The notes below the pieces were generated by a model that saw only the letters and a list, made by a program, of their open reading frames with translations, was not told the DNA's origin and searched no databases. From contig NC_089432.1 of assembly GCF_026210795.1 (NCBI RefSeq), positions 4,526,001 through 4,590,000 on the forward strand: a DNA stretch of 64,000 nucleotides, read 5' to 3'. Both the position numbers and the translations under genes were made by a program. Of the stretch, positions 509 through 63,903 are shown piece after piece. The stretch's first letter is position 1; each line of letters begins with the position of its first letter. Source of the DNA: Rhizophagus irregularis. Taxonomy: Eukaryota > Glomeromycota > Glomeromycetes > Glomerales > Glomeraceae.

Positions 509-2519
509 TTATAAAATTTCTGCTAATTTATTTTGAGCATCTTGATCTCCTTGTTCTGCACATTTTTCATACCAGTAAATTGCTTGATTAATATCTTTCA
601 CATCTTCTTCATTTTCATACATAAAAGCAAGATTATATTGAGCTATTCTATATCCTAAATTTGCTGACTCTTTATATAATTCAAATGCTTTTTGTTTATT
701 AATAATAGTTCCAATTCCAATATCATAACAATAACCTAGATTATTTATTCCACTTGCACTACCGAAATCTGCAGCCTTCTGATATAATTCAAATGCCTTG
801 TGTTTATCAAAACTAGTTCCAATTCCATCTTCATAACAATTTGCTAAACCATTTATTCCGTATGGATTATCTAAATTTGCAGCCTTTTGATATGATTCAA
901 ATGCTTTTTGTTTATTATTGATTTCAATCCCTAAACGACTAAAATCTCCAAGTAAAACAAGAGAATTTGAATTAGTTTGATTATTTAACAACCAATAATA
1001 AATTTCTTGTGAATTAATATTACAATAATTAAGATAATTGAGGACTTCCTGCTTTTCTCTTTCTCTTTCTATATTATCAATAAGAACAACTATTTCGTCA
1101 ACCACTATACTAAAATCATCTTCGTTCAATAACATTGGAGGTTCTATTTCTTTATTATTTATTCTAATAAAATTTTGAATAATTTGAGATAATTTGATAC
1201 CATGTGACAAATTATTGAGTGCTTGTTCACTTGATAATTGATTTGAAATAATTGATTTTAATTTAACAATAACTTCATTGATAATTGGACGATTATTCGG
1301 TTCGTCATTCCAACAATCTAAAAAAATAAATACATATACGGTTCATAATAAATCAATATAGTAAAATTATGTATGTGAGATTAAATTATATTTACCAGTA
1401 TAAATTTTTATATAATCTTCAGGGGTATTAACGACAGGTTTTTCTCTAAGTCCCTGTAAAATTCTCAAATCCAAACCAATATTTGATATATCGGTTGGTT
1501 CATTACAAAAAGGTGGTTGACCACTAGATATTTCCCATAACAGTACGCCAATGCTATAAATATTGCTCTTTTTATTTAATGAGTATGATTGTGTTTGGTG
1601 ATTATTGATTCTTTTTTGTTCAATTAATTTTGGATCAACATAAGCAATCATATCAAATAATTTTGATTGAATATTAGATAATTCTTCGCTTCTTTTTGAT
1701 AATCTAAAGTCTGTTAATTTGGCAATACCTTGATGAACTAAAACATTGTTCGAGTGCTATAATTATATATGTGATAAATAAAACAATTAAGTTAATAATG
1801 TGTGACAGATAGTGGCTCATTATATGAGATAAGTTAATTACCAGATTATGATGTACAATTCCTTTATCATGTAAATATGATACAGCACTAGCTAGTTGAA
1901 GTGCAATATTTAATTTATTGCTCCAATCTAGACTATCAAAATGTTCTTTTAAATAGTTTCGTAGGGTACCACTGTCAGCGTATTCCATTACTAACAAATA
2001 TTTTTTTGAATTATCATCTTGGTTTTCTTTTAAGAAAGAAAAAAAAAATAATGGAATAATGGATATTAGAAATATAAAATAATATGAATTCTCTTAAGAA
2101 AAACAATAACTAAATATTTTTCATACTTATAGTAATACCACAAAAGCGAATAATATTTTCATGAAAATTCATTTCATATAGAAGTTTAAGCTAAACCACG
2201 AATAGAATTTTTAAATTAGGAAAATAAAATATCATAAAGGACTAAATTTATTTTATACAAATAATATAATTACTTCATTAACAGTTTCTTTGACTGTGAC
2301 ATTGTTTATATTAGAAAAAGATTTCAACGTTAAATATTTATTAGAACCTTTCCAGTTTGCACGACAAACTTTTTCAAAACTTCCAAAACCAATTTCTTGA
2401 ATATTTCTAAAATGGTTGTATTCGTAATATTTAAAGTAATTTTTTGAAATAGCATCCTCAATCCAATTAATCTGCTCATCTGAATTTTTAGTGACTTTAA
2501 TTTCAATGTTATTAGACAT
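509..2519 (-). CDS. Gene 1: TKL pseudokinase-Sel1 repeat protein, 5 exons, 554 aa
   Basis: Exons (minus): 2274-2519, 2127-2190, 1842-2026, 1396-1756, 509-1317. All junctions are GT..AG, keep frame, and match the other family members. The start is the MSNNIEIKV methionine shared with genes 2 and 3. Residues 1-40 hold the family leader (NWIEDAI, YYEYNHF). The kinase fold runs about 41-290, with glycine loop GFGSFEKV and lysine K66 (LTLK). The catalytic HRD is HHN (162-164) and DFG is DFR (181-183), so both aspartate/glycine signatures are damaged and catalysis is unlikely. CWNDEPNNRP marks the C-lobe end in exon 5. A linker and about four Sel1 repeats (AFELYQKAA, YNLAFMYE) follow; Sel1 repeats form alpha-solenoid protein-binding scaffolds. 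Probable role: pseudokinase scaffold (inference). It is the most diverged of the three HHN copies. Confidence 0.85.
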
Positions 2520-2549
2520 TGTTAAGTACAAAAAAAAAAGAAAAAGAAT

Positions 2550-2662
2550 TTGCAAGTAACGCCATTCTTATAAATGTAATGCAGTAACCTGTCGATCATT
2601 TGTCATTGAACAATCGGATCACAAAAGATCGGCACTAATGTTACTTCAGCAGGCCAGAATTA
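2550..2662 (-). promoter_or_regulatory. Conserved upstream block of gene 1 (class I)
   Basis: This block is shared with 6550-6675 and 10231-10343 at the same distance from ATG. Common words in plus-strand order are TTTGCAA, GTAACGCCAT, GTCGATCATTT, AGATCGGCACTAATGTTA and GGCCAGAATTATA. The surrounding DNA is much less conserved, so this is probably the core promoter and 5' UTR. TSS not known. Confidence 0.55.
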
Positions 2663-4611: not shown

Positions 4612-6520
4612 TTATTCCTCTAATAGTGCTTCCAACTTATATTGAGCGTCTTGATCTCCTTGTTCTGCACATTTTTTATACCAATATACTGCTTGGTTTA
4701 TATCTTTTACGCTACCATATCCATTTTCATACATATAAGCAAGATTATATTGAGCTATTTTATAACCTAATTTTGCAGCCTTTCGATATAATTCAAATGC
4801 CTTTTGTTTATTGAGATTTGTCCCATTTCCGACTTCATAACAATATGCTAAACTACTAATTCCATATGCATTTCCTAAATTTGAAGCCTTTTGATATAAT
4901 TCAAATGCCTTTTGTTTATCAATATTTACTTCAATTTTTAAACTAATAAAATCTCCAAGTAAAACAATAGAATTTGAACTAGTCTGATTATATAATAACC
5001 AATTATAAATTTGTCGTGGAGTAATGTCATGATTATTAAGGTATTTAAGAATTTCTTCCTTACCACTTTCTTGTTCTATAAAATTATTATAAAGAAGAAT
5101 AATCAAATCATCAACTATTAAGTGAAAATCATCCTCATTCAATGACATTGATGGTTCTATTTCCTTTATACTTATCTTACTAAAATTTTTATTAAGTTGA
5201 AATAATTCTTCATGTAATGAATTATTATTAAGCGGTTGTTCATCTGATAATTTATTTAAAATAAGCGCATTTAATTTAGCAATAACTTCATTGATAATCG
5301 AACGATTATCTGGTTCATGATTCCAACAATCTAGAAATATATAAAGTACATACAGTATATAAATAAATAATTAATCAATACCATAATATTGTATATAAAT
5401 TTAAATTATATTAATTATATTTACCAATATAAATTTTTACATAATCTTCAGGGGTATTAGCGACAGGTTTTTCTCTAAGCCCCTGTAAAATTTTCAAATC
5501 CAAACCAATATTTGATATATCAGATGGTTCATTACAAAAAGGTGGTCGACCACTAGATATTTCCCATAAGAGTACACCAACGCTATAAATATTACTCTTT
5601 TTATTTAATGAGTATGATTGTGTTTGGTGATTATTGCTTCTTTTTTGTTCAAATAATTTTGGATCAATATAAGCAACCATGCCAAAGAAATTTGATTGAA
5701 GATTGGATGATTCTTCAATTCTTTTTGATAATCCAAAATCTGTTAATTTGATGATCCCTTGATGAACTAATACATTGTTCGAGTGCTTTAATTACATGTG
5801 AAAAATAAAAAAAAAAATTAAAGCAAATAAATTATACACTATTCATAATAGAAAATAAATTAATTACCAGATTATGATGCACAATTCCTTTATCATGTAA
5901 ATATGATACGGCACGAGCTAATTGAAGTGCAAGGCTTAACTTATTGTTCCAATCTAGACTATCAAAATTTTCTTTTAAATAGTTTCGAAGTGTACCATTA
6001 TCGGCATATTCCATCACTAACAAACAATTTTTTGAATCATCATCTTGATTTTCTTTTAAAAGAAAAAGAAAAAATAATATTAGAAATATAAAATAATATT
6101 TTTATTTTATTTAAAAAAAGTCATACCTATAGTAATACCATAAAAGAGAATAATATTTTCATGAAAATCCATTTCATATTGATGTTTAACCTAAATTATG
6201 AATAAGAATTTCAAATTAAAAATGCAAAATATTATAAATATAAAAATTAATATTGTAAATAAAAAAATGATTACTTCATTAACTATTTCTTTGACTGTTA
6301 CATTGTTGATATTAGAAAAAGATTTCAACACTAAATATTTATGAGAATCATTCCAGTTTGCACGATAAACTTTTTTAAAACTTCCGAAGCCAATTTCTTG
6401 AATATTTCTGAAATGGTTGTATTCGTAATATTTAAAGTAACTTTTTGAAATAGTATCTTCAATCCAATTAACCTGCTCATCTGAATTTTCAGTAACTTTA
6501 GGTTCGATGTTATTAGACAT
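4612..6520 (-). CDS. Gene 2: TKL pseudokinase-Sel1 repeat protein, 5 exons, 524 aa
   Basis: Exons (minus): 6275-6520, 6127-6190, 5868-6052, 5425-5785, 4612-5330. Exon lengths match gene 1 except the last. Starts at MSNNIEPKV; the open frame upstream of it is promoter and UTR. Glycine loop GFGSFKKV and lysine K66 are present. HRD is HHN (162-164) while DFG is intact (181-183). The activation segment reads YIDPKLF and the C-lobe CWNHEPDNRS. The Sel1 region has about three repeats, one fewer than genes 1 and 3, matching its 30-amino-acid-shorter length. An intact fold with one lost catalytic aspartate suggests a pseudokinase or a kinase with non-canonical chemistry (inference). Confidence 0.87.
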
Positions 6521-10343: not shown

Positions 10344-11039
10344 ACAAATAACATAATTATTAGTTAAAATCTACAGATCTTTACATTACTACATTGTATA
10401 TAGATTTGTTATCCTAATTATTATCGCCGAAGGGCGAAGGTATGATTTCTGAAAAAAATTAACTAAATGTTCGTTCTTATTTTTGTAGGTCCAGAATTTA
10501 TTATTACTAGATCTGTCAAATTTATACCATATGATATTGTTATGTAACGACCTGTTTCTAAAAGAGTATCTAACCATCTTTCTGTTTAATATTTATTATT
10601 CCTCTTTGTAATAAATCTTTTTCGACTAGATCAGCAGAATTTATTAATAAGTTATGCAATATCTGTTTTACACTTTTACATATAAAAATGACATCATGAA
10701 ACAAATAAAATGTAATAAGATTACCATAGAAATATTATACACAAGTCATTCATTATCTTATAACTAATGAATGTAATTAATTATTTGATAAATTTTTTCA
10801 TATCAGTTAGAAAATTTAAATAATCAAATTGAATGAAAAGCTATTTTAATTAATGAATAAATCAATTATGGTATCCTTTAAACTATTTAAAGAAAACTTC
10901 CAATTGATGTGAATATTTTGATAATTATTTTATTTTGTCTGACAAACTATTTACATATAATTGTTAATACATAGTATTCCAGTAAATATCTAAACGTCAT
11001 TATAACTCAAGTATAGTACATTAATGAAACTATTATTAA

Positions 11040-11590
11040 CATTCTAATAAGAACTCCAAAATCATTAAGCATATTATTACTCCAATTATATTTAGCGCAT
11101 TTTTTAAAACAATAAATTGCTTGTTTTATATCTTTTACAGCTTCTTCTTGTTCATACATATTATAAAATAAAGTATTTATTTTTATACTTTTCTTTGTAC
11201 ATAATTAATTAATATGGTTATTAGTAATAATAGTATGCAAGGCAAAGAAGGGAAATAAGCAAGATTTATATTGGGCTATATACATCACCTAAATTTTCAC
11301 TTTCTGATATACAGTAATTCAAAGTACAATAATTTTCTGAATTATTGATTTGAAATTAATATGAATTTTTCTCATACTTATCTAAAAAAATAAATAATTT
11401 ACTTGTGAGATTTCATTTGGTGCTGAAGTTTAAGTTAGAATTTTAAATCAGAAACGTGTAAATACAAATGATATAATTACTTTATCTAACGATAATTTTC
11501 CAGTTCACAAAAGACTTTTCCGAAACCTCTGTAACCAACTTTTTGAATGATCGAATTTGTAAATTTTAAATGGGTGATATAGATAGACGA
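11040..11590 (-). pseudogene. Gene 4: decayed kinase-Sel1 gene fossil
   Basis: Read on the minus strand, pieces of the family gene appear in order. Around 11590-11480 is exon 1 debris (FGKVFCEL-like, from a GRGFGKVF-like loop). Around 11430-11385 is exon 2 debris (LKLQHQMKSHK, compare LKRQYEMDFHE). Around 11320-11270 is Sel1 debris (FELLYIRK). Around 11160-11095 is MYEQEEAVKDIKQAIYCF. Exons 3 and 4 are missing, stops interrupt, and about 100 unrelated bases (11165-11265) split a Sel1 repeat. It lies where a fourth tandem copy would be expected after genes 1-3. Confidence 0.7.
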
Positions 11591-15231: not shown

Positions 15232-15320
15232 AACGCCTTTTACGTATTTTATGCGGGTTTTTCTCCGATTGTCACACAGCGCCATCAGTATCACCAAACA
15301 AAAATGGTCTATCATCCGAC
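15232..15320 (-). promoter_or_regulatory. Class II promoter block of gene 5 (partial)
   Basis: Plus-strand order: CGCCTTTTACGTATTTTATG, GTCACACAGCGCCATCAGTA, TCACCAAACAAAAATGG, TCTATCAT. The ACTGCGG direct repeat that ends the block in sister genes is eroded here (TCCGACATTAAACACCGCAA). Confidence 0.6.
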
Positions 15321-21084: not shown

Positions 21085-22077
21085 TTACAAATTATTAATT
21101 TTTTTGAAGTAATTTAACTTATGTCGTGCATTTTGATATCCTTGTTCGGCAGATTTTTCATACCAATAAATTGCTTTATCAATATCTTTTGTAATTCCTC
21201 TTCCAAATTCATACATAATACCAAAATTGTATTGTGCTAACATATTTCCCAAATTTGCTGATTTTTGATATAATTCAAATGCTCTTTCCTGATCAATTTT
21301 AGTTCCAATACCTTTTTCATAACAATATCCTAACATTGTTATTCCACCTGAATATCCTGCTTCAGCTGATTTCTTACACAATTCAAAAGCTTTATTATAA
21401 TCTATTTCAACACCAATTCCTTTTAAATAACACTTGCCAAGATTTGACATTGCCATCATATTTCCATTATTTGCAGCTTTTTCATAATAATAAATAGCCA
21501 TTTTTATATCCCTTTTAATGCCTATTCCATTATAATATAAGTAACCAATTTTTAATTGTCCATTTGCAAAATTTTTATTAACCACTTTTTCATAATATTT
21601 AAAAGCTAATTTTTCATTTCTTATAATTCCATATCCATATTGATAACATTCACCAACATAAGTTTGTGCTAATACATGATCTTTTTCTGATGCATCAATA
21701 AATAAATTAAATGCTTTCTTATTATTTTTACTTGTTTCAATTCCAAAATAATTAAAATATCCAAGTAAAAAAATGGAATTTGAACTATTTTGATTATTTG
21801 ATAACCAATAATAAATTTCTTGTGAATTAGTATTATAACTATTAAAACATTCAATAACTAGTTCATTTATTAATTTTCTTTCAATACCTCTATTTGATAA
21901 ATTAAAAATTAAATCATTTACTTTATCAATTACTATGTCTAATCCTTTTTCAAACAAAAGTTTCTCTCGTTCATTTGACACTGTTATAGGATCAATTTCT
22001 TTTATATTTATTTTGTCAAAATAAGTATTCCATTCATTCGTATTTTCGGTATTTTGCATTTTCTTATTATCAAACAT
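21085..22077 (-). CDS. Gene 6: Sel1-repeat protein lacking the kinase domain, 330 aa
   Basis: Single exon. The open frame extends upstream to 22275, but that extension crosses the conserved promoter block. MFDNKKMQNTENTNEW at 22077 aligns with the MSDN start of every paralog and is chosen. After NEW the protein jumps to NTYFDKINIKEIDPI, so the kinase and part of the linker are gone; the break differs from those of genes 5 and 10. About six Sel1 repeats follow (ECYQYGYGIIRN, YLYYNGIGIKRD, KCYLKGIGVEIDY, YCYEKGIGTKID, IMYEFGRGITKDI) with the [12 protein letters not shown] cap. Soluble adaptor by family knowledge. Confidence 0.88.
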   Translation of the reverse strand: MFDNKKMQNTENTNEWNTYFDKINIKEIDPITVSNEREKLLFEKGLDIVIDKVNDLIFNLSNRGIERKLINELVIECFNSYNTNSQEIYYWLSNNQNSSNSIFLLGYFNYFGIETSKNNKKAFNLFIDASEKDHVLAQTYVGECYQYGYGIIRNEKLAFKYYEKVVNKNFANGQLKIGYLYYNGIGIKRDIKMAIYYYEKAANNGNMMAMSNLGKCYLKGIGVEIDYNKAFELCKKSAEAGYSGGITMLGYCYEKGIGTKIDQERAFELYQKSANLGNMLAQYNFGIMYEFGRGITKDIDKAIYWYEKSAEQGYQNARHKLNYFKKINNL

Positions 22078-22170: not shown

Positions 22171-22240
22171 GTTACACAGCGCCATCAATATCACCAAAAC
22201 AAAAAAGCCGTCCATCATAAGCCGCAGTACCACAGTAATG
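22171..22240 (-). promoter_or_regulatory. Class II promoter block of gene 6
   Basis: Plus-strand order: GTTACACAGCGCCATCAATA, TCACCAAAACAAAAAA, GTCCATCATAAGCCGCAGTA and CCACAGTAATG. Nearly the same as at gene 7, together with about 50 flanking bases (TGATTTTTGGAAGTTACACA). Confidence 0.65.
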
Positions 22241-25392: not shown

Positions 25393-27668
25393 TCATATAT
25401 TTTTTCGAAGTATTTCTAATCTATTCTTTGCATCTTGACCTCCTTGTTCGGCAGATTTTTCATACCAATAAATTGCTTTGTCTATATCTTTTGTAATTCC
25501 ACTTCCATTTTCATACGTAACACCAAGATTATATTGTGCTACCATATTTCCTAAATCTGCTGATTTTTGGTATAATTCAAATGTTTTTCGCACATCAATT
25601 TCAATTCCAATACCATTAAAATAACAATATCCTAACATTGTTATTCCATTTGAATATCCTCCTTCAGCTGATTGCTTGAACAATTTAAAAGCTTTATTAT
25701 AGTCTTTTTTAACATCATCGCCGTCTTTATAATAATGACCAAGATTATACATAGCTACTATATTTCCATTATTTGCAGCTTTTTCATACCAGTAAAAAGC
25801 CTTTTTTACATCTTTTTTAATACCTATTCCAATGCCATAAAAACGACCAATCTCTAATTGCCCTTGTGACAAATTTTTATTAGCCAATTTTTTATAATAT
25901 TCAAAAGCTAATTTTTTATTTTTTGTAGTTCCATTACCATATTCATAACAATTCCCAACAAAATATTGCGCAAGTATATGATTTTTTTCTGATGCATTAA
26001 TAAATAACTTAAATGATTTCTCAGCATATATACTTGTCCCAATTCCCCTAAGATTGAAATATGCAAGTAAAAAAATGGAATTTGAACTATTTTGATTATT
26101 AGATAACCAATTATAAATTTCTTGCAAATTAGTATTACTATTGTTAAAATATTCAATAAATTGCTTTTCAACTAATTTCCATTCAAACCCTTTATTTAAT
26201 AATTTAAAAATTAAATCATTTGTTTCATTAACTATACTGTTGAAATCTATTTCAGTTGAAAGTTTCTCTTGCTTATTTGACTCTGCTATAGTATCAATTT
26301 CTTTTGTATCCATTTTATTAAAATTATGAATAAGTCGAGATAATTCTCCCTGTGATTCTGAATTATTAATACTTGAAGGGACCTCATTAAATTCATGATT
26401 GTTAGATAATTGAGGAGTTTCTTTTAACCAATCAACTACTTGAAATATAGTTGGACGATTATTTGGCTCACCATCCCAACATTCTAAAAGAAGACAAAAT
26501 ACAACTTAAGATTGACTAAAATAACTTCAAATATATAATTAAAATTAAAAATTTTTTACTTACTAGTATAAATTTTTATATATTTATCGGGTGTATCAGG
26601 AACAACTGTTTCTCTAAGACCTTGTGAAATTTCCAAAATTAAACTAACATCATAATGTTCACCATCAGCATAAAAAGGAGGCTGTCCACTTGATAATTCC
26701 CATAATAATACTCCAATACTGTAAACATCACTTTTTTCGTTTAATGAATACATTTGGTTATTGTTATTTCTTCTCCTGCTAAAACTTTTTGGATCAACAT
26801 AAGGAATCATCCCAAATAATTTGGATTGAACATTAGATGATGCCCCGATTCTTTTTGATAACCCAAAATCTGCTAATTTGATCGTGTTTTGATGGACTAA
26901 TATATTGCCAGAGTGCTATTAAAAATGTAAGTAAAGCAAATATATAATTGATGTGAATAATAAAAATAGATTACTACCAACGATGTAAAATAATAATAAA
27001 TAGATTACCAAGTCACGATGGACAACGCCCTCAATATGTAAGTATGATACAGCGCTGGATAACTGGTACGCCATAAGGTGCTTATCATTCCAAGTAAGTG
27101 TACTAAAGGTATTCTTCAAATAGTTTCGAAGACTACCACCGTCTGCATATTCCATTACTAGCATATAATTAATACCGTTATCATGGTTTTCTGAAAATAA
27201 AAAAAAAAACATTAAAAATGTACTTTATGAAGAAAATTCAAAATATTACATTTAAAATTATTATAATACCTGATTCAAATTTAGTTATTCCATGACAACG
27301 TATTATATTATCATGAAGGTCAACTTCACGTTGAATTTTTAACTAAATAAAAAAATTCAAATTTTAAATAAATTAGACTAATAAAACAAAGAATAAAAAA
27401 AAATTATTATATAATAAGTTACCTCACGAACAATTTCTTTCACAGTGATGTTGTCAAGACTAAAAAAAGATTTTAATGCTAAATGTTTTTCTAAATTTTT
27501 CCAATTTGCACGGTATACTTTTCCAAAACCTCCAACACCAATTTGTTGAAAGTTACTAAATTGGTTGTATTCGTAAAATTTTAAGTGCTCTTTGGCGATA
27601 GCTTCATCAATCCAATTAATCCATTCATTCGAATTTTCAGAGTTTTGCATTTGCTTATTATCAGACAT
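25393..27668 (-). CDS. Gene 7: TKL protein kinase-Sel1 repeat protein, 5 exons, 647 aa
   Basis: Exons (minus): 27423-27668, 27270-27342, 27009-27190, 26564-26915, 25393-26483. It starts MSDNKQMQ; the longer upstream frame runs through the promoter. The glycine loop is GVGGFGKV (44-51), with lysine K66 (LALK), catalytic HRD (164-166; intron 3 falls right after HRDL), then HSGN and DFG at 183-185. Activation segment PYVDPKSF; C-lobe [10 protein letters not shown]. All catalytic residues are present, so it is probably an active Ser/Thr or dual-specific TKL kinase (family knowledge). The linker is shorter than in gene 8, without the ITKTDI stretch. About six Sel1 repeats end in [12 protein letters not shown]. 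Confidence 0.9.
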
Positions 27669-27770: not shown

Positions 27771-27838
27771 GTCACACAGCGCCATCAGTATCACCAAACA
27801 GAAAGGCTGTCCATCATAAGCCGCAGTACCACAGTAAC
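27771..27838 (-). promoter_or_regulatory. Class II promoter block of gene 7
   Basis: Plus-strand order: GTCACACAGCGCCATCAGTA, TCACCAAACAGAAAGG, GTCCATCATAAGCCGCAGTA and CCACAGTAACG. About 100 bases from ATG. Confidence 0.65.
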
Positions 27839-32098: not shown

Positions 32099-34404
32099 TC
32101 ATGATTTATTTTTTCGAAGTAATTCTAATTTATTCTTTGCATTTTGATATCCTTGTTTGGCAGATTTTTTATACCAATAATTTGCTTTATCCTTATTTTT
32201 TATAATTCCTTTTCCAAATTCATACATAAGACCAAGATTATATTGTGCTAACATATCTCCCAAATTTGCTGATTTTTGATAAAACTCAAATGCTTTTTGC
32301 ATATTAATTTTAGTTCCAATACCATTTTCATAACAATATCCTAACATCATTATTCCATCTAAATATTCTCCCTCAGCTGATTGTTTAAACAATTCAAAAG
32401 CTTTATTTTCATCTTCTTTAACACCCATTCCATTTCTATAACAATTACCAAGATTATGCATAGCTATTATATTTCCATTATTTTTAGCTTTTTCATACCA
32501 ATAAAAAGCCTTTTTTAGACTTTTTTTAACGCCTATTCCATTTTCATAAAAATAACCAATTTGTGTTTGTCCACGCGAAAGACTTTTATTAGCTGACTTT
32601 TTATAATATTCAAAAGCTAATTTTTCATTTTTTGCAGTTCCATTACCATATTCATAACAATTCCCAACAAAATATTGTGCAAGTATATGATTTTTTTCTG
32701 ACGCATTAATAAATAAATTAAATGCTTTCTCATTATTTTTGCTAATTTCAATTCCCTTATAATCGAAATATCCAAGTAAAAAAATGGAATCTAAATTATT
32801 TTGATTTTGATTATTTAATAACCAATTATAAATTTCTTGCAAATTAATATTGTGATTATTAAAATAATCAATAACATTATCTTCTAATAACTGCCAGTCA
32901 ACTCCTTTATTTAATAATTTAAAAATTAAATCATTTACTTCATAAACTATACTATTAAAATCTATTTCAGTTGATAGTTTCTCTTGCTTATATGACTCTG
33001 CTATAGCATAAATTTCTTTTGTACTCATTTTATTAAAATAATTAATAAGTCGGGATAATTCTCCTTGGGATTCTGAATTATTAATACTTGAAGGGATCTT
33101 ATCAAATTCTTTATTGTTTGATAATTGAGGATTTTCTATTATTATATCGGTTTTTGTAACGATTACTTTTAACCAATCAACCACTTGAAATATAGTTGGA
33201 CGATTATTTGGCTCACCATCCCAACATTCTAAAAAGAAGACAAAATACAACTTAAGATTAACTAAAATAACTTCAAATATATAATTAAAATTAAAAATTT
33301 TTTACTTACTAGTATAAATTTTTATATATTCATCGGGTGTATCAGGAACAACTGTTTCTCTAAGACCTTGTGAAATTTCCAAAATTAAACTAACATCATA
33401 ATGTTCACCATCAGCATAAAAAGGAGGCTGTCCACTTGATAATTCCCATAATAATACTCCAATACTGTAAACATCACTTTTTTCGTTTAATGAATACATT
33501 TGGTTATTATTACTATTTCTTCTTCTGTTAAAACTTTTTGGATCAACATAAGGAACCATACCAAATAATTTGGATTGAAAATTGGATGATGCCCCAATTC
33601 TTTTTGATAACCCAAAATCTGCCAATTTGATCGTGTTTTGATGGACTAATATATTGCTTGAATGCTATTAAAAATGTAAAAATTAAATAAGTAAAGTAAA
33701 TATAACACTACAAACAATAAAAAATAATAATAAATAGATTACCAAGTCACGATGGACAACCCCCTCAACATGCAAGTATGATACAGCGCTGGATAACTGG
33801 TACGCCATAAGGTACTTATCATTCCAAGTAAGTTTACTAAAGTTATTCTTCAAATAGTTTCGAAGACTGCCACCGTCTGCATATTCCATTACCAGCATAT
33901 AATTAATAACGTTACCATGATGGTTTTCTGAAAATAAAAAAAAACATTAAAAATGTACTTTATGAGGAAATTAAAAATATCACATTTAAAATTATTATAA
34001 TACCTGGTTCAAGTTTTGTTATTCCATGACAACGTATAATATTATCATGAAGGTCAACTTTACGTTGAATTTTCAACTAAATAAATAAATTTAAATTTTT
34101 AAATATAATACGCTAATAAAATCAGAGAATAAAAAAAAATTATTATATATTAAGTTACCTCACGAACAATTTCTTTCACAGTGATGTTGTCAAGACTAAA
34201 AAAAGATTTTAATGCTAAATGTTTTTCTAAGTTTTTCCAATTTGCACGGTATACTATTCCAAAACTTCCAACACCAATTTGTTGAAAGTTACTAAATTGG
34301 TTGTATTCGTAAAATTTTAAGTGCTCTTTGACGATAGCTTCTTCAACCCAGTTAATCCATTCATTCGTATTTTCGGAGTTTTGCTTTTGCTTATTATCAG
34401 ACAT
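32099..34404 (-). CDS. Gene 8: TKL protein kinase-Sel1 repeat protein, 5 exons, 662 aa
   Basis: Exons (minus): 34159-34404, 34004-34076, 33743-33927, 33310-33664, 32099-33228. Starts MSDNKQKQ. Glycine loop GVGSFGIV, lysine K66, HRD 165-167, HSSN then DFG at 184-186, PYVDPKSF and [10 protein letters not shown]: a complete catalytic set. The linker keeps [14 protein letters not shown], the piece that reappears near the N-terminus of genes 10, 12 and 13. About six Sel1 repeats ([60 protein letters not shown]). Exon 3 has one extra codon (ENHHGN against ENHDN in gene 7). Very similar to gene 7. Confidence 0.9.
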
Positions 34405-34510: not shown

Positions 34511-34577
34511 TCACCACAGTATCACCAAACAAAATTACAAAAAATGTCTATCATTAGCCGCAGTACCGCAGTAATGA
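34511..34577 (-). promoter_or_regulatory. Class II promoter block of gene 8
   Basis: Contains TCACCACAGTATCACCAAAC, GTCTATCATTAGCCGCAGTA and CCGCAGTAATG. The GTCACACAGCGC half is shortened to TTCACCACAG relative to sister genes. Confidence 0.6.
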
Positions 34578-38586: not shown

Positions 38587-38652
38587 TCATTACTGCGGCA
38601 CTGCGGCTAAAAAAATCAAGTGGTTGACAACTTTTTGTTTGTGGCACTGTAC
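38587..38652 (+). promoter_or_regulatory. Class II promoter block of gene 9 (diverged)
   Basis: Reads CATTACTGCGGCACTGCGGC, then TTTTTGTTTGTGGCACTGT. The direct repeat ACTGCGGcACTGCGG is intact, but the GATACTGATGGCGC core is reduced. About 120 bases before ATG. Confidence 0.55.
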
Positions 38653-38768: not shown

Positions 38769-41064
38769 ATGTCTGATATCAAAATGCAAGATATCGAGAA
38801 TAAAAATGAATGGATTAATTGGATTGAAGAAGCCATTCACAAAGAACATATAAAATATTATGAATACAAGGAATTTAATAACTTTCAAGAAATTGGTACC
38901 GGAGGTTTTGGTAAAGTGTACCGTGCAAATTGGAAAAATTTAAATAAATGTTTTGCGGTAAAGTCTTTTTTTAGCCTTGACAATATCACCGTAGAAGAAA
39001 TTATTCGTGAGGTAATTTTTAAATAAAAATTTTTCTTTTTATCATTATAACATTGTTTATTAAAATTTATTTATTAAAATTTGAATTTATTTAGTTAAAA
39101 AATCAACGTGAAGTTGATTATCATGATAATATTATTTGTTGTCATGGAATAACGAAATTTGAGTCAGCAGGTATTATAATGATACTTTAATTAATATAAT
39201 ATACGTATTTTATTCATAAAAAATGCATTTTAATTAATTATTTCTTTTGTTCTTTAGAATATCATGTTAGTAATAATTATATGTTAGTAATGGAATATGC
39301 TAATAATGGCAGTCTTCGAAGTTATTTGGAAAAAAACTTTGGTAAACTTACATGGGATGATAAATATATTATGGCATACCAGTTAGCTTGCGCTGTGTCA
39401 TGCTTACATAATAAAGGGATTGTCCATCGTGACCTGGTAATTTATTTATTTTCTTCAATCATTGTCTATAATATAATATTTGCATTACTAAGTTTATATA
39501 TAACTTTTTAATAGCATTCTGGTAATATATTAGTTCATCAAAACACGATCAAATTGGCGGATTTTGGATTATCAAAAAGAATCGGAGCGTCATCAAATGT
39601 TCAATCCAAAATATTTGGAATGGTTCCTTATGTTGATCCAAAAATTTTTAATAGACGAAGAAATATTAATAATCAAACATCTCAAATTTACTCATTAAAT
39701 GAAAAAAGCGATGTTTACAGTGTTGGCGTATTGTTATGGGAAATATCCAATGGCCAACCTCCCTTTTATGTTGAAGGTGAACGATATGATGTTGGTTTAG
39801 CTTTGGAGATTTTACAAGGTCTTAGAGAAACAGTTGTTCCTGATACACCCGAAAATTATGTAGAAATTTATACTAGTAAGTAAATTTTAATTGTAATTAC
39901 TTAAATATTATTTTTCTAATCTTAAATTACATTTGTTATTTAGAGTGCTGGGATGGTGAACCAGATAATCGTCCAAATATATATCAAGTAGTTGATCGTT
40001 TAAAAGAGATGATTACAAAAACAGATGCAATAGCAAATATTCTTCAATCATTAGACAAACATGAATTTAGCAAGGCTTCTTTAAGTATTAATGGTTTAGA
40101 ATCACAAAGAGAATTATCTCAACTTATTCAAAATTTCAATAAAATTAATACAAAAGAAATTGATCCTATGATAGTTTTAAGTAAACAAGAAAATATTTCA
40201 GCTGAAGAAGATTTTAATAGAATAATTGATGAAATAAATGATTTTATTTATAATTTATCAAATAAAAGAATTGAATGGAAATTAATGAAAGGAAAAGTTA
40301 TTGAATATTTTAATAATTATAACACTTATTCAGAAGAAATATATAATTGGTTATCAAATAATCAAAATAGTCCAAATTCAATTTTTTTATTTGGATATTT
40401 TAATCAGTTTGGAATTGCAACAAGTGAGGATTATAAAAAATCTTTCAATTTATTTATTAATGCATCGGATCAAGATCATATATTAGCACAACATTTTGTT
40501 GCTGATTGTTACCTAAGTGGAACTGGAACTACAAAAAATAAAAAATTAGGTTTTGAATACTATGAAAAAGTAGCCAATAAAAATTTTGCACGTGGACAAT
40601 TAGAAATTGGTTATTGTTATGAAAATGGAATAGGTATTAACATAGATATAAAAAAGGCTATTTATTGGTATGAAAGAGCTGCAAATAATGGAAATATGAT
40701 GGCTATTCATAATCTTTTTGTTCGTTATTTAAGTGGAAATGGTGTTGAAAAAGATCATAACAAAGCATTCGAATTGTCTAAGCAATTAGCTGAAGGAGGA
40801 GATTTGGGTGGAATAACTCTGTTAGGAAATTGTTATTATATTGGTATTGGAACTAAAATTGATAAGCAAAAAGCATTTGAATTATATCAAAATGCTGCAA
40901 ATTTAGGACAAATGATAGCACAACATAATCTGGGTAAGATATATGAAAATGTAGGAGGAATTACAAAAGATATAAACAAAGCAATTTATTGGTATGAAAA
41001 AGCTGCCAAACAAGGACATAAACATTCACAAAATGTATTACTAGAAATACTTCAAAATAAATAA
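38769..41064 (+). CDS. Gene 9: TKL protein kinase-Sel1 repeat protein, 5 exons, 659 aa
   Basis: Exons: 38769-39011, 39095-39170, 39258-39436, 39515-39875, 39944-41064; introns are 83, 87, 78 and 68 bases. Starts [15 protein letters not shown]. Glycine loop IGTGGFGKV (42-50), lysine K65 (AVK), catalytic HRD 163-165, HSGN 167-170, DFG 182-184, PYVDPKIF, then [11 protein letters not shown] at 287. About six Sel1 repeats cover roughly 430-650 ([48 protein letters not shown]), ending [12 protein letters not shown]. The only kinase member on the plus strand here. A complete catalytic set supports activity; substrate unknown. Confidence 0.92.
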
Positions 41065-47208: not shown

Positions 47209-48327
47209 TTAAAGCGATTTTATTTTATGTAGTGCATTTTGACATCCTTGGTTGGCAGATTTTTCATACCAATAAATTGCTTGGTCTATATCTTTTGTAA
47301 GTCCTTTTCCATATTCATACATAAGACCAAGATTATATTGTGCTATCATACTTCCTAAATTTGCTGATTTTTGATATAATTCAAATGCTTTTTGATGATC
47401 AATTTCAATTCCAGTACCATTTTCATAACAATATCCTAACATTGTTGTTGCACGAAGATATCCTTCTTCAGCTGATCGTTTAAACAGTTCAAAAGCTTTA
47501 TTATAGTCTTTCTCGACACCTTCTCCATTTAAATAACATTTACCTAAATTATGCATAGCCATTATATTTCCATTATTTGCAGCATTTTCATACCAATGAA
47601 TAGATTTTTTTAAATCTTTTTTAATACCTATTCCATTATAATATAAGTAACCAATTCTTAATTGACCATTTGCAAAATCTTTATTAGCCACTTTTTCATA
47701 ATATTCAAAAGCTAATTTTTCATTTTTTATAGTTCCATATCCATATTGATAACATTCACCAACATAAGTTTGTGCTAATATATGATCTTTTTCTGATGCA
47801 TTAGTAAACAAATTAAATGCTTTCTTATTATTTCTGATTATTTCAATTCCATAATAATTAAGATATCCAAGTAAAAAAATGGAATTTGAAACATTTTGAT
47901 TATTTGATAACCAGGTATAAATTTCTTGTGAATTAACATTATAACTATTAAAATATTCAATAACTCGCTCTTTTGCTACTTTTCCTTCAATTCCTTTATT
48001 TAATAATTTAAAAATTAAATCATTTACTTTATCAATTATTATATCAAAACCTTTTTCAAATGAAAGTTTTTCTCGTTCTTTTGATACTGTTATAGGATCA
48101 ATTTCTTTTATATTTATTTTGTCAAAATGTTGAAAAATTTGAGATAATTTTCCTTGTAATTCTGAATTGTTGGTACTTAAAGTTTCCTCATTAAGTTTTT
48201 TATTGCTTGAAAATTGGGCATTTTCTGCTATATCTGTTTTTGTAATTATAGTTTTTTCTTCATTCCAATTAATCCATTCATTCGTATTCGCATTTTCGGT
48301 GTCTTGCATTTTCTTATTATCAGACAT
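47209..48327 (-). CDS. Gene 10: Sel1-repeat protein lacking the kinase domain, 372 aa
   Basis: Single exon starting MSDNKKMQDTENANTNEWIN. After the leader (NEWINWNEE) it continues KTIITKTDIAENAQFSSNKK, which corresponds to the exon 5 linker of the kinase genes ([14 protein letters not shown] in gene 11). The break therefore removes about 280 residues, from just before the glycine loop to just after CWDGEP. A second linker part (STNNSELQGKLSQIF, IKEIDPITV) and about six Sel1 repeats follow (ECYQYGYGTIKN, YLYYNGIGIKKD, KCYLNGEGVEKDY, YCYENGTGIEID, LMYEYGKGLTKDI). Probable soluble adaptor. Confidence 0.9.
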   Translation of the reverse strand: MSDNKKMQDTENANTNEWINWNEEKTIITKTDIAENAQFSSNKKLNEETLSTNNSELQGKLSQIFQHFDKINIKEIDPITVSKEREKLSFEKGFDIIIDKVNDLIFKLLNKGIEGKVAKERVIEYFNSYNVNSQEIYTWLSNNQNVSNSIFLLGYLNYYGIEIIRNNKKAFNLFTNASEKDHILAQTYVGECYQYGYGTIKNEKLAFEYYEKVANKDFANGQLRIGYLYYNGIGIKKDLKKSIHWYENAANNGNIMAMHNLGKCYLNGEGVEKDYNKAFELFKRSAEEGYLRATTMLGYCYENGTGIEIDHQKAFELYQKSANLGSMIAQYNLGLMYEYGKGLTKDIDQAIYWYEKSANQGCQNALHKIKSL

Positions 48328-48430: not shown

Positions 48431-48497
48431 GTCACACAGCGCCATCAGTATCACCAAACAAAAAACCGTCTATCATTAGCCGTAGTACCGCAGTAAT
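48431..48497 (-). promoter_or_regulatory. Class II promoter block of gene 10
   Basis: Contains GTCACACAGCGCCATCAGTA, TCACCAAACAAAAAACC, GTCTATCATTAGCCGTAGTA and CCGCAGTAAT. About 104 bases from ATG, preceded by TAAGTATTTTATGCAGATT, which reads GCATAAAATACTTA on the gene strand, a TATA-like word. Confidence 0.7.
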
Positions 48498-49461: not shown

Positions 49462-51775
49462 TTAGAATTTATTATAAATTATAGACATTTTTTGAAGTAT
49501 TTCTAATTTATTTTGTGCTATTTCATCTCCTTGTTCAGAAGATTTCTCATACCAATATATTGCTTTGTCTATATCTTTTGTAATTCCTATTCCATATTTA
49601 TACATTTAGCTATACTATATTGTGCAGTTTCATCTCCTAAGTTTGCTGATTTTTGATATAATTCAAATGCTTTTTGTTTATTAATATTAGTTCCAATTCC
49701 ATAACTATAGCAATACCCTAACATCGCTAATCCATCTAAATCTCCTTCTTCAGCTAATTGCTTATACAATTTAAAAGCTTCATTATAATCTTTTTCAACA
49801 CCTATTCCATTTTCATAACAAAGGCCAAGATTCCATATAGCAATTATATTTCCATTACTTGCAGCTTTTTCATACCAATAAAAGGCCTTTTTCAAATCTT
49901 TTTTTAATACCTATTCCATGCCCATAAAAATAACCAATTTCTGATTGTCCTCGTGAGAAATTTTTATTAGCCGATTTTTCAAAATATTCAAAAGCTAATT
50001 TTTCATTTTTTATAGTTCCACTAAAATAACAATACCCAGCAAAATATTGTGCAATTATATGATCTTGTTCTGATGCAATAATAAATAAATTAAACGCTCT
50101 CTCCCTATTTTTACTTGTTTCAATTCCCCTATAATAGAAATATCCAAGTAAAAAAATGGAATTTGAATTATTTTGATTATTTAATAACCAATTATAAATT
50201 TCTTGCAAATTAATATTGTGATTATTAAAATAATCAATAACTTGATCTTTTGCTAGCTTCCATCCAATTCCTTTATTATATAATTTAAAAATTAAATCAT
50301 TTATTTCATCAACTATACTATTAAAATTTATTTCACTTGAAAATTTCTCTTGCTTATCTGATTTTACTGTGGTATCAATTTCTTTAGTATTCATTTTATT
50401 AAAATTATTAATAAGTTGAGATAATTCTCCCTGTGATTCTGAATTATTAATACTTGAAGGGGCCTCTTTAAATTTTTGATTTTTTGATACTTGAGGATTT
50501 TCTATTATTATATCTGTTTTTGTAATGATTGCTTTTAACCAATCAACTACTTGAAATATAGTTGGACGATTATCTGGCTCACCATCCCAACATTCTGAAA
50601 AAAGAGAAATATAATTATGATTAATTAAAATATATTCAAATAAATTCGATTATGTAATTAAACTTAAAATTTTACTTACTAGTATAAATTTTTACATATT
50701 TATTGGGTGTATCAGGAACAGCTATTTCTCTATGACCTTGCGAAATGTCATAAATTAGACCAACATCATAATGTTCACCATCAGCATAAAAAGGAGGTTG
50801 TCCACTTGATAATTCCCATAATAATACTCCAATACTGTAAACATCACTTTTTTCATTTAATGAATACATTTGGTTATTATTATTTCTTCTCCTGCTAAAA
50901 CTTTTTGGATCAACATAAGGAACCATACCAAATAATTTTGATTGAAAATTGGACGATGCCCCGATTCTTTTTGATAACCCAAAATCTGCCAATTTGATCA
51001 CGTTTTGATGGACTAATATATTGCTAGAATGCTATTAAAAATGTATGTACAGTATTAAATAAGTAAATATAACACTACAAACAATATAAAATAATAATAA
51101 ATAGATCACCAAATCACGATGGACAACGCCCTCAACATGTAAGCATGACACAGCACTGGCTAACTGGTACGCCATAAGGTACTTATTATTCCAAGTTAAT
51201 TTACTAAAGTTATTCTTCAAATAATTTCGAAGACTACCACCGTCTGCATATTCCATTACTAGCATATAATTAATACCATTATCATGGTTTTCTGAAAATA
51301 AAAAAAAAGCCATTAAAAATGTTTTTATGAAAGGAACTTAATATATTATTTTTAAAATTTTTATAATACCTGATTCAAATTTTGTTATTCCATGACAACG
51401 TATAATATTATCATGAAAGTCAACTTCACGTTGAATTTTCAACTAAATAAATAAATTAAAATTTTGTAATAAATGTAATGGACCAATAAAACAGAATAAG
51501 AAAAAAAAATTTATCGTATATTTAATTACCTCACGAACAATTTCTTTCACAGTGATGTTGTCAAGATTAAAAAAAGATTTTAATGCTAATTGCTTTTCTA
51601 AATTTTTCCAATTTGCACGGTACACTTTTCCAAAACCTCCAGCACCAATTTTTAGAAAGTTACTAAATAGGTTGTATTCGTAAAATTTTAAGTGTTCTTT
51701 GACAATAGCTTCTTCAATCCAATTAATCCATTCATTCGTATTTTCGGAGGTTTGCATTTTCTCATTATCAGACAT
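49462..51775 (-). pseudogene. Gene 11: kinase-Sel1 gene with two frameshifts in the Sel1 region
   Basis: Exons (minus): 51530-51775, 51370-51442, 51110-51291, 50680-51031, 49462-50594. The kinase is complete: GAGGFGKV, K66, HRD 164-166, HSSN, DFG 183-185, [10 protein letters not shown]. In exon 5 a run of seven A near 49905 (six in paralogs) adds a base and stops the frame after KRFEKGLLLV. Sel1 coding continues in the next frame ([13 protein letters not shown] to AQYSIA), and a missing base near 49606 returns it to the first frame ([20 protein letters not shown]) to a stop at 49462. As written it would make a 525-residue kinase with about half its Sel1 repeats. Either an early pseudogene or two homopolymer-type sequencing errors. 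Confidence 0.8.
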
Positions 51776-51868: not shown

Positions 51869-51936
51869 GGCGCTCAGTGTTTTAGTATTACCAAACAAAA
51901 AAGTTGCTTATCAGTATCCGCAGTACCGCAGTAGTG
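51869..51936 (-). promoter_or_regulatory. Class II promoter block of gene 11 (diverged)
   Basis: Reads GGCGCTCAGTGTTTTAGTAT, TACCAAACAAAAAAG, TATCAGTATCCGCAGTACCG and CAGTAGTG. The order is kept, but the GTCACACAGCGCC half is scrambled. Confidence 0.55.
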
Positions 51937-58756: not shown

Positions 58757-58780
58757 TTACTGCGGTACTGCGGCTAATGA
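58757..58780 (+). promoter_or_regulatory. Distal half of the gene 12 promoter block
   Basis: Reads TTACTGCGGTACTGCGGCTA then ATGA, the direct repeat found at 62617 upstream of gene 13, but cut off from the rest of the block by a 436-base insertion. Confidence 0.65.
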
Positions 58781-59216
58781 AAACAGGGCGGACATGCTTT
58801 ATATCACTTGCCGATCATTTGCCGATCATATAATTATTCGGTGATATGTTACTTTAAAGCTTCGGCCGAAACCACAGAAGTTAGACCGAAACTTGAAACT
58901 TTTATAGGTTATATATAGCTTAACTGTTTTAAAACTAATAGCTGAACTAATTTTAGGTAATCCACGAGTTATGGCCAAATTAATACTTGAAATTATATTG
59001 ATTTAATTTATGTAATAAATATAAATTTTCAAAACATCATTTCTCAATCAATTCTGCATGAACATGGTTAAATAAAAATTATTTTGGTTTTATACGTTGT
59101 GGAATTTGCAAGAAAAATAGCCCAATAATCATATTTTTTTTATGAGATAATATCGAATAGATAATTGAAATGATCGGCAAAATGATCGGCGATAATGTGA
59201 TAATATGAGGATGTCC
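58781..59216. mobile_element. MITE inserted in the gene 12 promoter block, 8-base target duplication
   Basis: GCTAATGA flanks both ends (58773-58780 and 59217-59224). In gene 13 the same promoter carries this octamer once (62631-62640). The interior ends are imperfect inverted repeats: CGGACATGC and TTGCCGATCATTTGCCGATC on the left, and GATCGGCAAAATGATCGGCG, GATGTCC on the right. No ORF. Confidence 0.68.
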
Positions 59217-59310
59217 GCTAATGATAGATGACTTTTTTGTTTGGTGATACTGATGGCGCTGTGTGACAATCAGAGAAAAATCTGCATAAAATACTTAAAA
59301 AGGGATTATT
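59217..59310 (+). promoter_or_regulatory. Proximal half of the gene 12 promoter block
   Basis: Reads GCTAATGATAGATGAC, TTTGTTTGGTGATACTGATG, GCGCTGTGTGACAATCAGAG, then GCATAAAATACTTAAAAAGG, a probable TATA region about 95 bases before ATG. Confidence 0.68.
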
Positions 59311-59397: not shown

Positions 59398-60525
59398 ATG
59401 TCTGATAATAAGAAAAAAATGCAAGACACTGAAAATACGAATACGAGTGAATGGATTAATTGGATTGAAGAAAAAACTATAATTACAAAACCAGATATAG
59501 CAGAAAATACCCAATTCTCAAGTGAGCAAGGATTTAATGAGGAAACTTTAACTACCAATAGTTCAGAATTACAAGGAAAATTATCTCAAATTTTTGACAA
59601 AATAAACATAGAAGAAATTGATCCTATAACAGTGTTAAAAGAAAGAGACAAACTTTTATTTGAAAAAGGGTTTGATATAATAGTTGATGAAGTAAATGAT
59701 TTAATTTTTAAATTATCAACTAAAGGAATTGAATGGAAGTTAATTGAAAAGCAAGTTATTGAGTATTTTAATGAATATAATACCAATTCACAAGAAATTT
59801 ATAATTGGTTATTAAATAATCAAAATAATTCGAATTCCATTTTTTTACTTGGATATTTTAACTACTTTGGAAATGAAATAAGCAAAAATTACGAGAAAGC
59901 ATTTAATTTATTTATTAATGCATCAGAAAAAAATCATATATTAGCACAAATATTTGCTGGTGAATGTTATCAATGTGGAAATGGAACTATAAAAAACGAA
60001 GAATTAGCTTTTGAATATATTGAAAAAGTGGCTAATAAAAATTTTGCAAATGGACAATTAAGAATTGGTTATTTTTACGAAAATGGAATAGGTATTAAAA
60101 AAGATATAAATAATGCTTTTTATTGGTATGAAAAAGCTGCAAATAATGAAAATATAATGGCTATATATAATCTTGGCTATTGTTATAAAAATGGAAAAGG
60201 TGTTAAAGAAGATTATAATAAAGCTTTTGAATTTTTTAAACAATCAGCTGAAGGACAATATTCAAATGGAATATTGATGTTAGGATATTGTTATGAAAAA
60301 GGTATTGGAACTAAAATTGATATGCAAAAAGCATTTGAATTATATCAAAAAACAGCAAATTTAGGAGAAAAGATAGCACAATATAATCTTGGTCTTATGT
60401 ATGAATATGGAAGTGGAATTACAAAAGATATAGACAAAGCAATTTATTGGTATGAAAAATCTGCCAAACAAGGACATCATAAAGCACAATATGGATTAGA
60501 AATTCTACTTCAAAATAATCAATAA
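59398..60525 (+). CDS. Gene 12: Sel1-repeat protein lacking the kinase domain, 375 aa
   Basis: Single exon starting [40 protein letters not shown] shows the same leader-to-linker junction as genes 10 and 13. The linker (TTNSSELQGKLSQIFDKINI, EEIDPITV) is followed by about six Sel1 repeats: [50 protein letters not shown] and [13 protein letters not shown] with [12 protein letters not shown]. Plus strand, as gene 13. Probable soluble adaptor. Its promoter is split by a transposon, so expression may differ from that of gene 13 (inference). Confidence 0.92.
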   Translation: MSDNKKKMQDTENTNTSEWINWIEEKTIITKPDIAENTQFSSEQGFNEETLTTNSSELQGKLSQIFDKINIEEIDPITVLKERDKLLFEKGFDIIVDEVNDLIFKLSTKGIEWKLIEKQVIEYFNEYNTNSQEIYNWLLNNQNNSNSIFLLGYFNYFGNEISKNYEKAFNLFINASEKNHILAQIFAGECYQCGNGTIKNEELAFEYIEKVANKNFANGQLRIGYFYENGIGIKKDINNAFYWYEKAANNENIMAIYNLGYCYKNGKGVKEDYNKAFEFFKQSAEGQYSNGILMLGYCYEKGIGTKIDMQKAFELYQKTANLGEKIAQYNLGLMYEYGSGITKDIDKAIYWYEKSAKQGHHKAQYGLEILLQNNQ

Positions 60526-61080: not shown

Positions 61081-61082
61081 AT

Positions 61083-62610: not shown

Positions 62611-62710
62611 CAATATTACTGCGGTACTGCGGCTAATGATAGACAGCTATTTGTTTGGTGATACTGATGGCGCTGTGTGACAATCTGCATAAAATACTTA
62701 AAAAGGGATT
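62611..62710 (+). promoter_or_regulatory. Class II promoter block of gene 13 (most complete copy)
   Basis: Reads CAATATTACTGCGGTACTGC, GGCTAATGATAGACAGC, TTTGTTTGGTGATACTGATG, GCGCTGTGTGACAATC and GCATAAAATACTTAAAAAGG. ACTGCGGTACTGCGG is a direct 8-base repeat. The last word is TATA-like, about 90 bases before ATG. Confidence 0.72.
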
Positions 62711-62793
62711 ATTCTCATTAAAAAAAATTTTTTTTTTACAACAATCGTATTATGTTAAAAACTTTCCCGTAAAAATTATTATTATTATTCAAT

Positions 62794-63903
62794 ATGTCTT
62801 CTGATAATAAGACGAATACGAACGAATGGATTAATCGGATTGAAGAAAAAACTATAATTACAAAAACAGATATAGCAGAAAATACCCAATTCTCAAGCGA
62901 GCGAGGACTTAATGAGGAAACTTTATTAACTACCAATATTTCAGAATTACAAGGAAAATTATCTCAAATTTTTGACAAAATAAATATAAAAGAGATTAAT
63001 CCTATAACAGTATCAAAAGAAAGAGAGAAACTTTCATTTGAAAAAGGTTTTGACATAATAGTTGATGAAATAAATGATTTAATTTTTAAATCATTTAATG
63101 AAGGAATTGGAATTGAACCTAAATTATTAAAAAAAAAATTTATTGACCATTTTAATAATTATAATACTAATTCAAAAGAAATTTATAATTGGTTATTAAA
63201 TAATCAAAATAATTCAAATTCCATTTTTTTACTTGGATATTTAAATCGCTTTGGAATTGGAACAAGTAAAAATAATAAGAAAGCATTTAATTTATTTATC
63301 AGTGCATCAGAAAAACATCATTTTTTAGCACAAACTTTTGCTGGTGAATGTTATCAATGTGGAAATGGAATTACAAAAAATGAAAAATTAGCTTTTGATT
63401 ATTTAGAAAAACTTGCTAATAAAAATTTTGCACATGGACAATATAGAATTGGTTATTTTTATGAAAATGGAATAGGTATTAAAAAAGATTTAAAAAAGGC
63501 TTTTCATTATTATGAAAAATCTGCAAATAATGGGAACAAAATGGCTACATATATTCTTGGTTATTGTTATAAAAATGGAAAGGGTGTTGAAAAAGATTAT
63601 AATAAAGCTTTTGAATTATTTAGACAATCAGCTACAGGAGAATATTCAAATGGAATAGTAATGTTAGGATATTGTTATGAAATTGGTATTGGAATTGAAA
63701 TTGATATGCAAAAAGCATTTGAATTATATCAAAAATCAGCGGATTTAGAAAATATGGTAGCACAATATAATCTTGGTGTTATGTATGAAAATGGGAAAGA
63801 AATTACAAAAGATTTAAACAAAGCAATTTATTGGTATAAGAAATCTGCGCAACAAGGATATCAAAAAGCACATTATAGATTAAATTTACTTCAATACCAA
63901 TAA
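62794..63903 (+). CDS. Gene 13: Sel1-repeat protein lacking the kinase domain, 369 aa
   Basis: Single exon starting MSSDNKTNTNEWINRIEEKT; about eight leader residues (KKMQDTEN) are deleted relative to gene 12. The IEE-KTIITKTDIAEN junction and linker (SELQGKLSQIFDKINI) are as in genes 10 and 12. About six Sel1 repeats follow: [50 protein letters not shown] and VMYENGKEITKDL with AIYWYKKSAQQG. It lies head to tail with gene 12 and is its closest relative. Probable soluble adaptor. Confidence 0.92.
   Translation: MSSDNKTNTNEWINRIEEKTIITKTDIAENTQFSSERGLNEETLLTTNISELQGKLSQIFDKINIKEINPITVSKEREKLSFEKGFDIIVDEINDLIFKSFNEGIGIEPKLLKKKFIDHFNNYNTNSKEIYNWLLNNQNNSNSIFLLGYLNRFGIGTSKNNKKAFNLFISASEKHHFLAQTFAGECYQCGNGITKNEKLAFDYLEKLANKNFAHGQYRIGYFYENGIGIKKDLKKAFHYYEKSANNGNKMATYILGYCYKNGKGVEKDYNKAFELFRQSATGEYSNGIVMLGYCYEIGIGIEIDMQKAFELYQKSADLENMVAQYNLGVMYENGKEITKDLNKAIYWYKKSAQQGYQKAHYRLNLLQYQ

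Follow-up and report, generated by a model that had tools for sequence, protein, structure and literature searches.

Expansion of kinase and Sel1-repeat genes in Rhizophagus irregularis and Glomeromycotina is described in two papers (PMC8647823, PMC6123716), the first of which also reports these signalling-related classes to be more methylated than core genes and overrepresented beside Mutator-like elements. Other sources provide counts of Sel1 and kinase motifs (PMC9453076), a mention of expanded tyrosine-kinase-like (TKL) genes (PMC4219462), homologues of the MLKL family (TCDB 1.A.105) that carry Sel1 repeats and occur exclusively in Glomeromycotina (PMC8778642), and, for R. irregularis, a kinase gene set expanded to 2,533, given in a paper that cites Kwon et al. 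2019 for pseudokinases (PMC10234402). The window examined here, meaning the whole 64,000-nucleotide stretch C4:4526001-4590000 of an R. irregularis genome of 146,748,485 bases (32 contigs, 23-27% GC), holds 12 related genes across positions 509-63903, seven encoding a kinase domain followed by Sel1 repeats (K1-K7) and five encoding Sel1 repeats only (S1-S5). Sequence comparison suggests that the Sel1-only genes are, most simply, kinase genes minus an internal block. To our knowledge, the purpose of most R. irregularis kinases is unknown; the work of Kwon et al. 2019 is said to describe fungal pseudokinase expansions and domain shuffling and to suggest a role in plant-fungal interaction.

The reading of the Sel1-only genes as derivatives of kinase genes is based on their nesting in the tree of Sel1 parts, on a junction in mid-exon, and on upstream sequence shared with kinase genes. 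In S3-S5, a leader (..NEWINWIEE) is joined directly to the linker that follows the kinase (..KTIITKTDIAEN..), and this junction falls within exon 1 and within exon 5 of the kinase genes. Some 20-25 leader residues are left in S3-S5, about 16 in S2 and 8 in S1, the extra losses in S1 and S2 being in frame; the original prediction of a removed kinase with leader and Sel1 part kept is thus borne out for S3-S5 and overstated for S1 and S2. More genes of this kind lie on C4 at 4.60-4.70 Mb (L001-L005, all open) and at 4.41 Mb (L006S, split by a stop), the frame being open in 10 of the 11 Sel1-only genes; the post-junction linker is present in nine of the 11 and similar in all nine. In the Sel1-part tree (52 rows, midpoint root; K7 is represented in the trees by its sequence before the first stop), the 11 Sel1-only rows are nested inside kinase-Sel1 rows. 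The Sel1-only label can be placed on this tree with 3 changes at fewest, whereas shuffled labels needed 10.1 on average and none of 500 shuffles was as low. A separate old lineage of Sel1-only genes, which the original prediction had named as its counter-case, was looked for within this genome and not found. Forcing the Sel1-only rows into one clade costs 11.7 log-likelihood (lnL) units (approximately unbiased test, AU, p 0.294), which allows a single origin without demonstrating it. On contig C2, the kinase-less L033 has a different leader-linker junction, pairs with the kinase gene L023 as its sister (100/98), and probably represents a second, separate kinase loss.

The genes and upstream sequences lie in the window as follows (lengths in amino acids, aa; HRD and HHN are catalytic-loop motifs):

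509..2519, minus: K1, pseudokinase-Sel1; 5 exons, 554 aa; HHN loop, DFR for DFG
4612..6520, minus: K2, pseudokinase-Sel1; 5 exons, 524 aa; HHN loop
8207..10197, minus: K3, pseudokinase-Sel1; 5 exons, 550 aa; HHN loop
14115..15131, minus: S1, Sel1-only; one exon, 338 aa; 8 leader residues remain
15275..15298, minus: upstream 24-mer before S1; no 17-mer found at this site
21085..22077, minus: S2, Sel1-only; one exon, 330 aa; leader shortened
22175..22236, minus: upstream 24-mer and 17-mer before S2
25393..27668, minus: K4, kinase-Sel1; 5 exons, 647 aa; HRD
27775..27835, minus: upstream 24-mer and 17-mer before K4
32099..34404, minus: K5, kinase-Sel1; 5 exons, 662 aa; HRD
34556..34572, minus: upstream 17-mer before K5
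38592..38608, plus: upstream 17-mer before K6
38769..41064, plus: K6, kinase-Sel1; 5 exons, 659 aa; HRD
47209..48327, minus: S3, Sel1-only; one exon, 372 aa; leader retained
48435..48494, minus: upstream 24-mer and 17-mer before S3
49590..49910, minus: out-of-frame remainder of the K7 Sel1 part
49870..51775, minus: K7, HRD kinase with frameshifted Sel1 part; 5 exons, 525 aa to first stop
51916..51932, minus: upstream 17-mer before K7
58759..58775, plus: upstream 17-mer before S4, parted from the 24-mer by an insert
58776-59235: insert in the S4 5' flank, with inverted-repeat ends
59240..59263, plus: upstream 24-mer before S4
59398..60525, plus: S4, Sel1-only; one exon, 375 aa; leader retained
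62618..62677, plus: upstream 17-mer and 24-mer before S5
62794..63903, plus: S5, Sel1-only; one exon, 369 aa; leader retained

Kinase and Sel1-only genes can be aligned in their 5' flanks. All eight window matches to the 17-mer ACTGCGGTACTGCGGCT (up to 3 mismatches) lie before K4-K7 and S2-S5 on the gene's own strand, none being expected; seven are 141-161 bp before the ATG, and that of S4 is 621 bp from it, separated by the insert with inverted-repeat ends, on both sides of which stands the 8-letter GCTAATGA. Nearer the gene, a 24-mer (0-1 mismatch) has six window matches, all before S1-S5 and K4, with none expected in shuffles. Across the genome, TACTGCGGTACTGCGGC, the exact 17-base form, is matched 13 times, 11 of them on C4, and not once in a reversed control; a 19-base form has 31 copies with at most 1 mismatch and 45 with at most 2, against 5 in the reversed control. 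The 31 copies were compared with a list of family ATGs that takes in 30 matches to the leader and 14 starts of Sel1-only or pseudokinase genes, but not all family genes. For 20 copies, a listed ATG on the same strand follows at 90-200 bp, and for three more (S4, L003 and one kinase gene) one follows at 378-621 bp; the other eight have none. Of these eight, the copies on C8 and C29 precede family remnants; at those on C10 and C26, no family gene was seen; and one lies at C4:5000287. The shared upstream DNA probably lies beyond the transcript start. At L042, L043, L047 and L048 it stands within a longer shared repeat, and GATGGGCCTCGTATTAA precedes it in L042, L043 and L048. An element exclusive to the family proved to be the wrong description, as copies lie in a repeat without a family gene seen; a repeat may have given rise to the family's upstream element or may have captured it.

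All gene models are our own predictions from sequence, without RNA support. The spliced models of K1-K7 have five exons each with four GT-AG introns at matching positions, and those of S1-S5 a single exon. A Pfam scan of eight of the 12 proteins found kinase and Sel1 in K1, K3 and K4, and Sel1 without kinase in S1-S5; in K2, K5, K6 and K7, outside that scan, kinase followed by Sel1 was assigned by alignment. Identity is highest between the kinase parts of K4 and K5 (94%), and because of this level of identity and the common intron positions, chance likeness of the genes is excluded. The 12 genes span 20,062 of the 64,000 bases. Pfam was run on 59 of 60 non-family open reading frames (ORFs) in the window (at least 60 aa, low-complexity filter passed); it gave one Sel1 match at 2.7e-29, which by its letters is the out-of-frame remainder of K7, and ten other families listed at E 0.00068-0.049. 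These results uphold the original prediction on three points: a single paralogous family, a membership that, over the 59 ORFs scanned, takes in every recognised gene of the window, and, by our models and loops, its composition of three HRD kinase genes, one with a damaged Sel1 part (K7), three without the catalytic aspartate and five kinase-less genes. A short ORF at 11010-11204 (minus) resembles a decayed Sel1 end by eye, Pfam having given Sel1 for one other ORF only. A tRNA search of the window with bacterial settings found none, and an Rfam search gave no match. At 44457-46107 lies an inverted repeat whose arms, 402 nt each and 847 nt apart, are 92% complementary; it is made up of short GCAGGTACCTGC-type sub-repeats and looks like a non-autonomous DNA transposon.

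Constraint was estimated with the codon model GY+F3X4, comparing lnL between free omega and omega 1. Omega was 0.272 for the kinase domain of the three genes K1-K3 (lnL -1545.8 free, -1565.9 at omega 1, a gain of 20.2), 0.229 for 18 other kinase domains (13 HRD, 5 HHN/HCD/HHD; -4981.0 and -5172.8), 0.259 for the Sel1 parts of ten Sel1-only genes (-4556.6 and -4638.5) and 0.239 for those of 19 kinase genes (-8564.8 and -8752.3), so that in all four sets the free model gains 20 to 192 lnL units over omega 1. Taken separately, the Sel1 parts gave 0.201 for K1-K3 and 0.287 for K4-K6. The 18 kinase domains are half of the 36 rows other than K1-K3 in the kinase tree (15 picked loci, less L035, which was too short, plus K4-K7), and the 29 Sel1 rows exclude K1-K3, K7, L006S, L008, L015, L017 and L021-L034. 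Ratios by the method of Nei and Gojobori (NG86) within the K1-K3 kinase, 0.26-0.37, agree with the codon model. Within each kinase gene, third-position GC steps down, from 0.19-0.26 in the portion that ends with the kinase to 0.09-0.14 in the Sel1 part; because so low a value is taken to inflate NG86, the codon model is preferred for Sel1 parts. By codon models, all three forms thus appear to be maintained under purifying selection, the values for the pseudokinase domains and the Sel1-only proteins being near those of the kinase genes (0.23-0.24). The median end branch is 0.26 in the Sel1 tree (52 rows) versus 0.089 in the kinase tree (39 rows), and by this measure the Sel1 part appears to change faster and the kinase to be steadier.

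The kinase domains of K4-K7 have a VHRDL catalytic loop, with HRD, DFG, the beta3 Lys and three G-loop glycines all present, and the K7 Sel1 part drops out of frame and later regains it. In K1-K3, the loop is VHHNL, the catalytic Asp being replaced, and the third G-loop glycine is gone (GFGSFE, GFGSFK, GFGNFK); K1 also has DFR, while DFG remains in K2 and K3. By eye, K1-K3 retain the beta3 Lys, alpha-C Glu and loop Asn, and they have fewer Sel1 repeats. L008, which adjoins the window on the outside and has an HHD loop and lost G-loop glycines, is their sister in both trees (100/100 for the kinase, 100/99 for the Sel1 part), suggesting that the Arg was lost before the Asp. L009 (C4:5029 kb) is also HHN and is placed elsewhere in the kinase tree, whose 39 rows comprise 28 HRD, seven HHD or HCD and four HHN loops. 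Genome-wide loop patterns (HHN 10 against 5 in a reversed control; HRD 166 against 3) are not family counts, since the pattern demands Val before His and misses the Ile or Leu forms of L010, L012, L015, L016, L017 and L019. The best kinase model for the family is PF07714 (Pfam, K1, K3 and K4), and the K4 kinase part matches a mix of PDB sequences, namely EGFR and ABL, which we take to be tyrosine kinases (TK), and MAP3K20, CTR1, LIMK1 and ROCO4, which we take to be TKL. In L017 and L048, the kinase-Sel1 linker carries short tandem peptide repeats (SSKQEDLPTAI; KSRSISSVNKSESQNS). On another contig, L007 (C14:602200-605300) is a broken copy near K3, 95% in exon 3, which implies that duplication has carried the pseudokinase clade to other places too.

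Searching the genome with S4 gave at least 124 matches, of which a hand count puts at least 91 on C4, the listed C4 ones lying within 1.56-5.51 Mb, and the listed matches of leader and exon searches are mostly on C4. Family size is a lower bound, as the searches scored the best 109 of 2547 candidates (S4), 150 of 2054 (leader), 150 of 2895 (exon) and 150 of 10777. As judged from these matches, the window belongs to a kinase-Sel1 array that extends over megabases of C4. Within the window, K1-K3 form, with L008 just outside it, a divergent clade beside one kinase/Sel1-only set (K4-K7 and S1-S5). The original prediction of a local mix therefore gives way to one of a far larger expansion; its description of K1-K3 as dead versions of the neighbouring kinases does not survive, given their divergence, fewer Sel1 repeats and missing upstream element; and its single signalling set is narrowed to K4-K7 plus S1-S5 at most, with K1-K3 apart.

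The altered forms are tentatively read here as kept by selection and acting as non-catalytic partners, decoys or scaffolds of the kinase forms, a possibility we favour without confidence. On the sequence evidence, kinase genes in the array lost a block that begins in the middle of exon 1 and ends in the middle of exon 5, producing single-exon Sel1-only genes that kept the start codon, the upstream sequence and the Sel1 repeats and then multiplied, S1 and S2 trimming the leader in frame. In the separate K1-K3 clade, the catalytic Asp and the third glycine of the G-loop were lost. The Sel1 part may bind a partner or ligand and the kinase may signal; the Sel1-only proteins, plausibly produced under control shared with the kinases, could bind the same partners without signalling, as competitors or scaffolds, and K1-K3 could be non-catalytic, perhaps nucleotide-binding, allosteric or scaffold forms. 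A wider version strikes us as unlikely, namely that recurrent in-frame kinase loss (at least in the C4 set and, at a different junction, in L033 on C2) supplies a reservoir of Sel1-only partners run from the kinases' upstream element, as the decoy or scaffold layer of a chromosome-scale sensor array with the fast Sel1 part as recognition surface. Several results weigh against the main reading. The window search found neither the 17-mer nor the 24-mer before K1-K3; 11 of the 31 element copies fall outside the 90-200 bp range from a listed family ATG, and around three of them (C11, C21 and C4:4335 kb), which lie in a shared repeat, 2.7 kb of sequence showed no family gene. The three label changes on the free Sel1 tree make two or more losses, or exchange between copies, possible. 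Direct repeats at the deletion ends, sought by aligning leader with tail in seven genes, were not significant (58-733 of 1000 triplet-shuffled controls were as good), so repeat-mediated deletion is not claimed. The omega-1 fits kept kappa at its free estimate, and NG86 on the Sel1 parts gave 0.39-0.81, well above the codon model, which makes relaxed constraint possible; a relaxed Sel1 part, first hinted at by these ratios, was not borne out by the codon model.

The same NG86 ratios favour a history of birth and death, in which a fast array sheds truncated or mutated copies and the Sel1-only and pseudokinase genes are transient and roleless, as do the frameshifted K7, the broken L007 on C14, L006S with its stop, and the family remnants L041 and L044. 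Open frames in 10 of 11 Sel1-only genes and the in-frame leader losses of S1 and S2 speak against such noise, however, and the omega values of 0.259 (ten Sel1-only genes) and 0.272 (K1-K3 kinase) are far from 1 by likelihood, which leaves this history rather unlikely in our judgement. It is more doubtful still that the Sel1-only and HHN forms hold separate jobs, such as an adaptor for another client or residual weak kinase activity, and neither compete nor scaffold: the beta3 Lys, alpha-C Glu and loop Asn kept in K1-K3, their different 5' flank and the fast-evolving Sel1 part would all fit, but no positive sign of another client was seen.

Two further origins of the Sel1-only genes have been considered. 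Sel1-only proteins are generally common in these fungi, and the kinase group K4, K5, K7 and L011 adjoins three Sel1-only rows in the Sel1 tree, as would be expected if the Sel1-only state were ancestral and the kinase inserted later; but the deep branches of that midpoint-rooted tree are held by family kinases with the Sel1-only rows nested, the kinase and Sel1 trees concur on K1-K3 with L008, on K4, K5, K7 and L011, and on K6, L013, L014 and L018, and the junction is mid-exon, with four fixed introns in the kinase part, so that later insertion is highly improbable. Hardly any more credible is an origin as retrocopies of alternatively spliced kinase mRNAs, which the single-exon state would suit, whereas the junction falls within exons 1 and 5 rather than at exon ends, and the kinase genes have in common with the Sel1-only genes upstream DNA probably beyond the transcript start.

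The active-looking, kinase-less and pseudokinase paralogues standing side by side offer concrete genes for testing whether the kinase expansion serves as a sensor system with built-in decoys. The upstream element, common to two of the three forms, could additionally serve as a sequence tag for possibly co-regulated members.

MLKL proper has an N-terminal four-helix bundle, the executioner domain, before its pseudokinase; in K1, K3 and K4, by contrast, the kinase match starts at residue 38-41, leaving too little room for a helical bundle. The Glomeromycotina homologues of the MLKL family (PMC8778642) resemble K1-K7 in combining a kinase-like domain with Sel1 repeats, and that set probably includes the kinase-Sel1 family of the window. 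With SEL1L/HRD3 and bacterial Sel1-repeat proteins the likeness is in the Sel1 repeats, S4 matching PDB 6ok3, 4bwr, 8ket and others in sequence, whereas S1-S5 show by eye no hydrophobic N-terminal signal or membrane stretch. The expanded TKL and Sel1 families of R. irregularis and other Glomeromycotina share the domains and the high copy number, by all signs in the same fungus, but the available parts of the papers on them treat these domains as gene classes, with no kinase-less derivatives sharing upstream sequence and no C4 array. In the literature searched, which mostly did not extend to subscription journals, no paper on kinase-less Sel1-only derivatives or on the upstream element was evident. 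The family expansion and the Sel1-bearing MLKL-like proteins have been reported already; of the Sel1-only set with its shared upstream sequence, these searches turned up no account.

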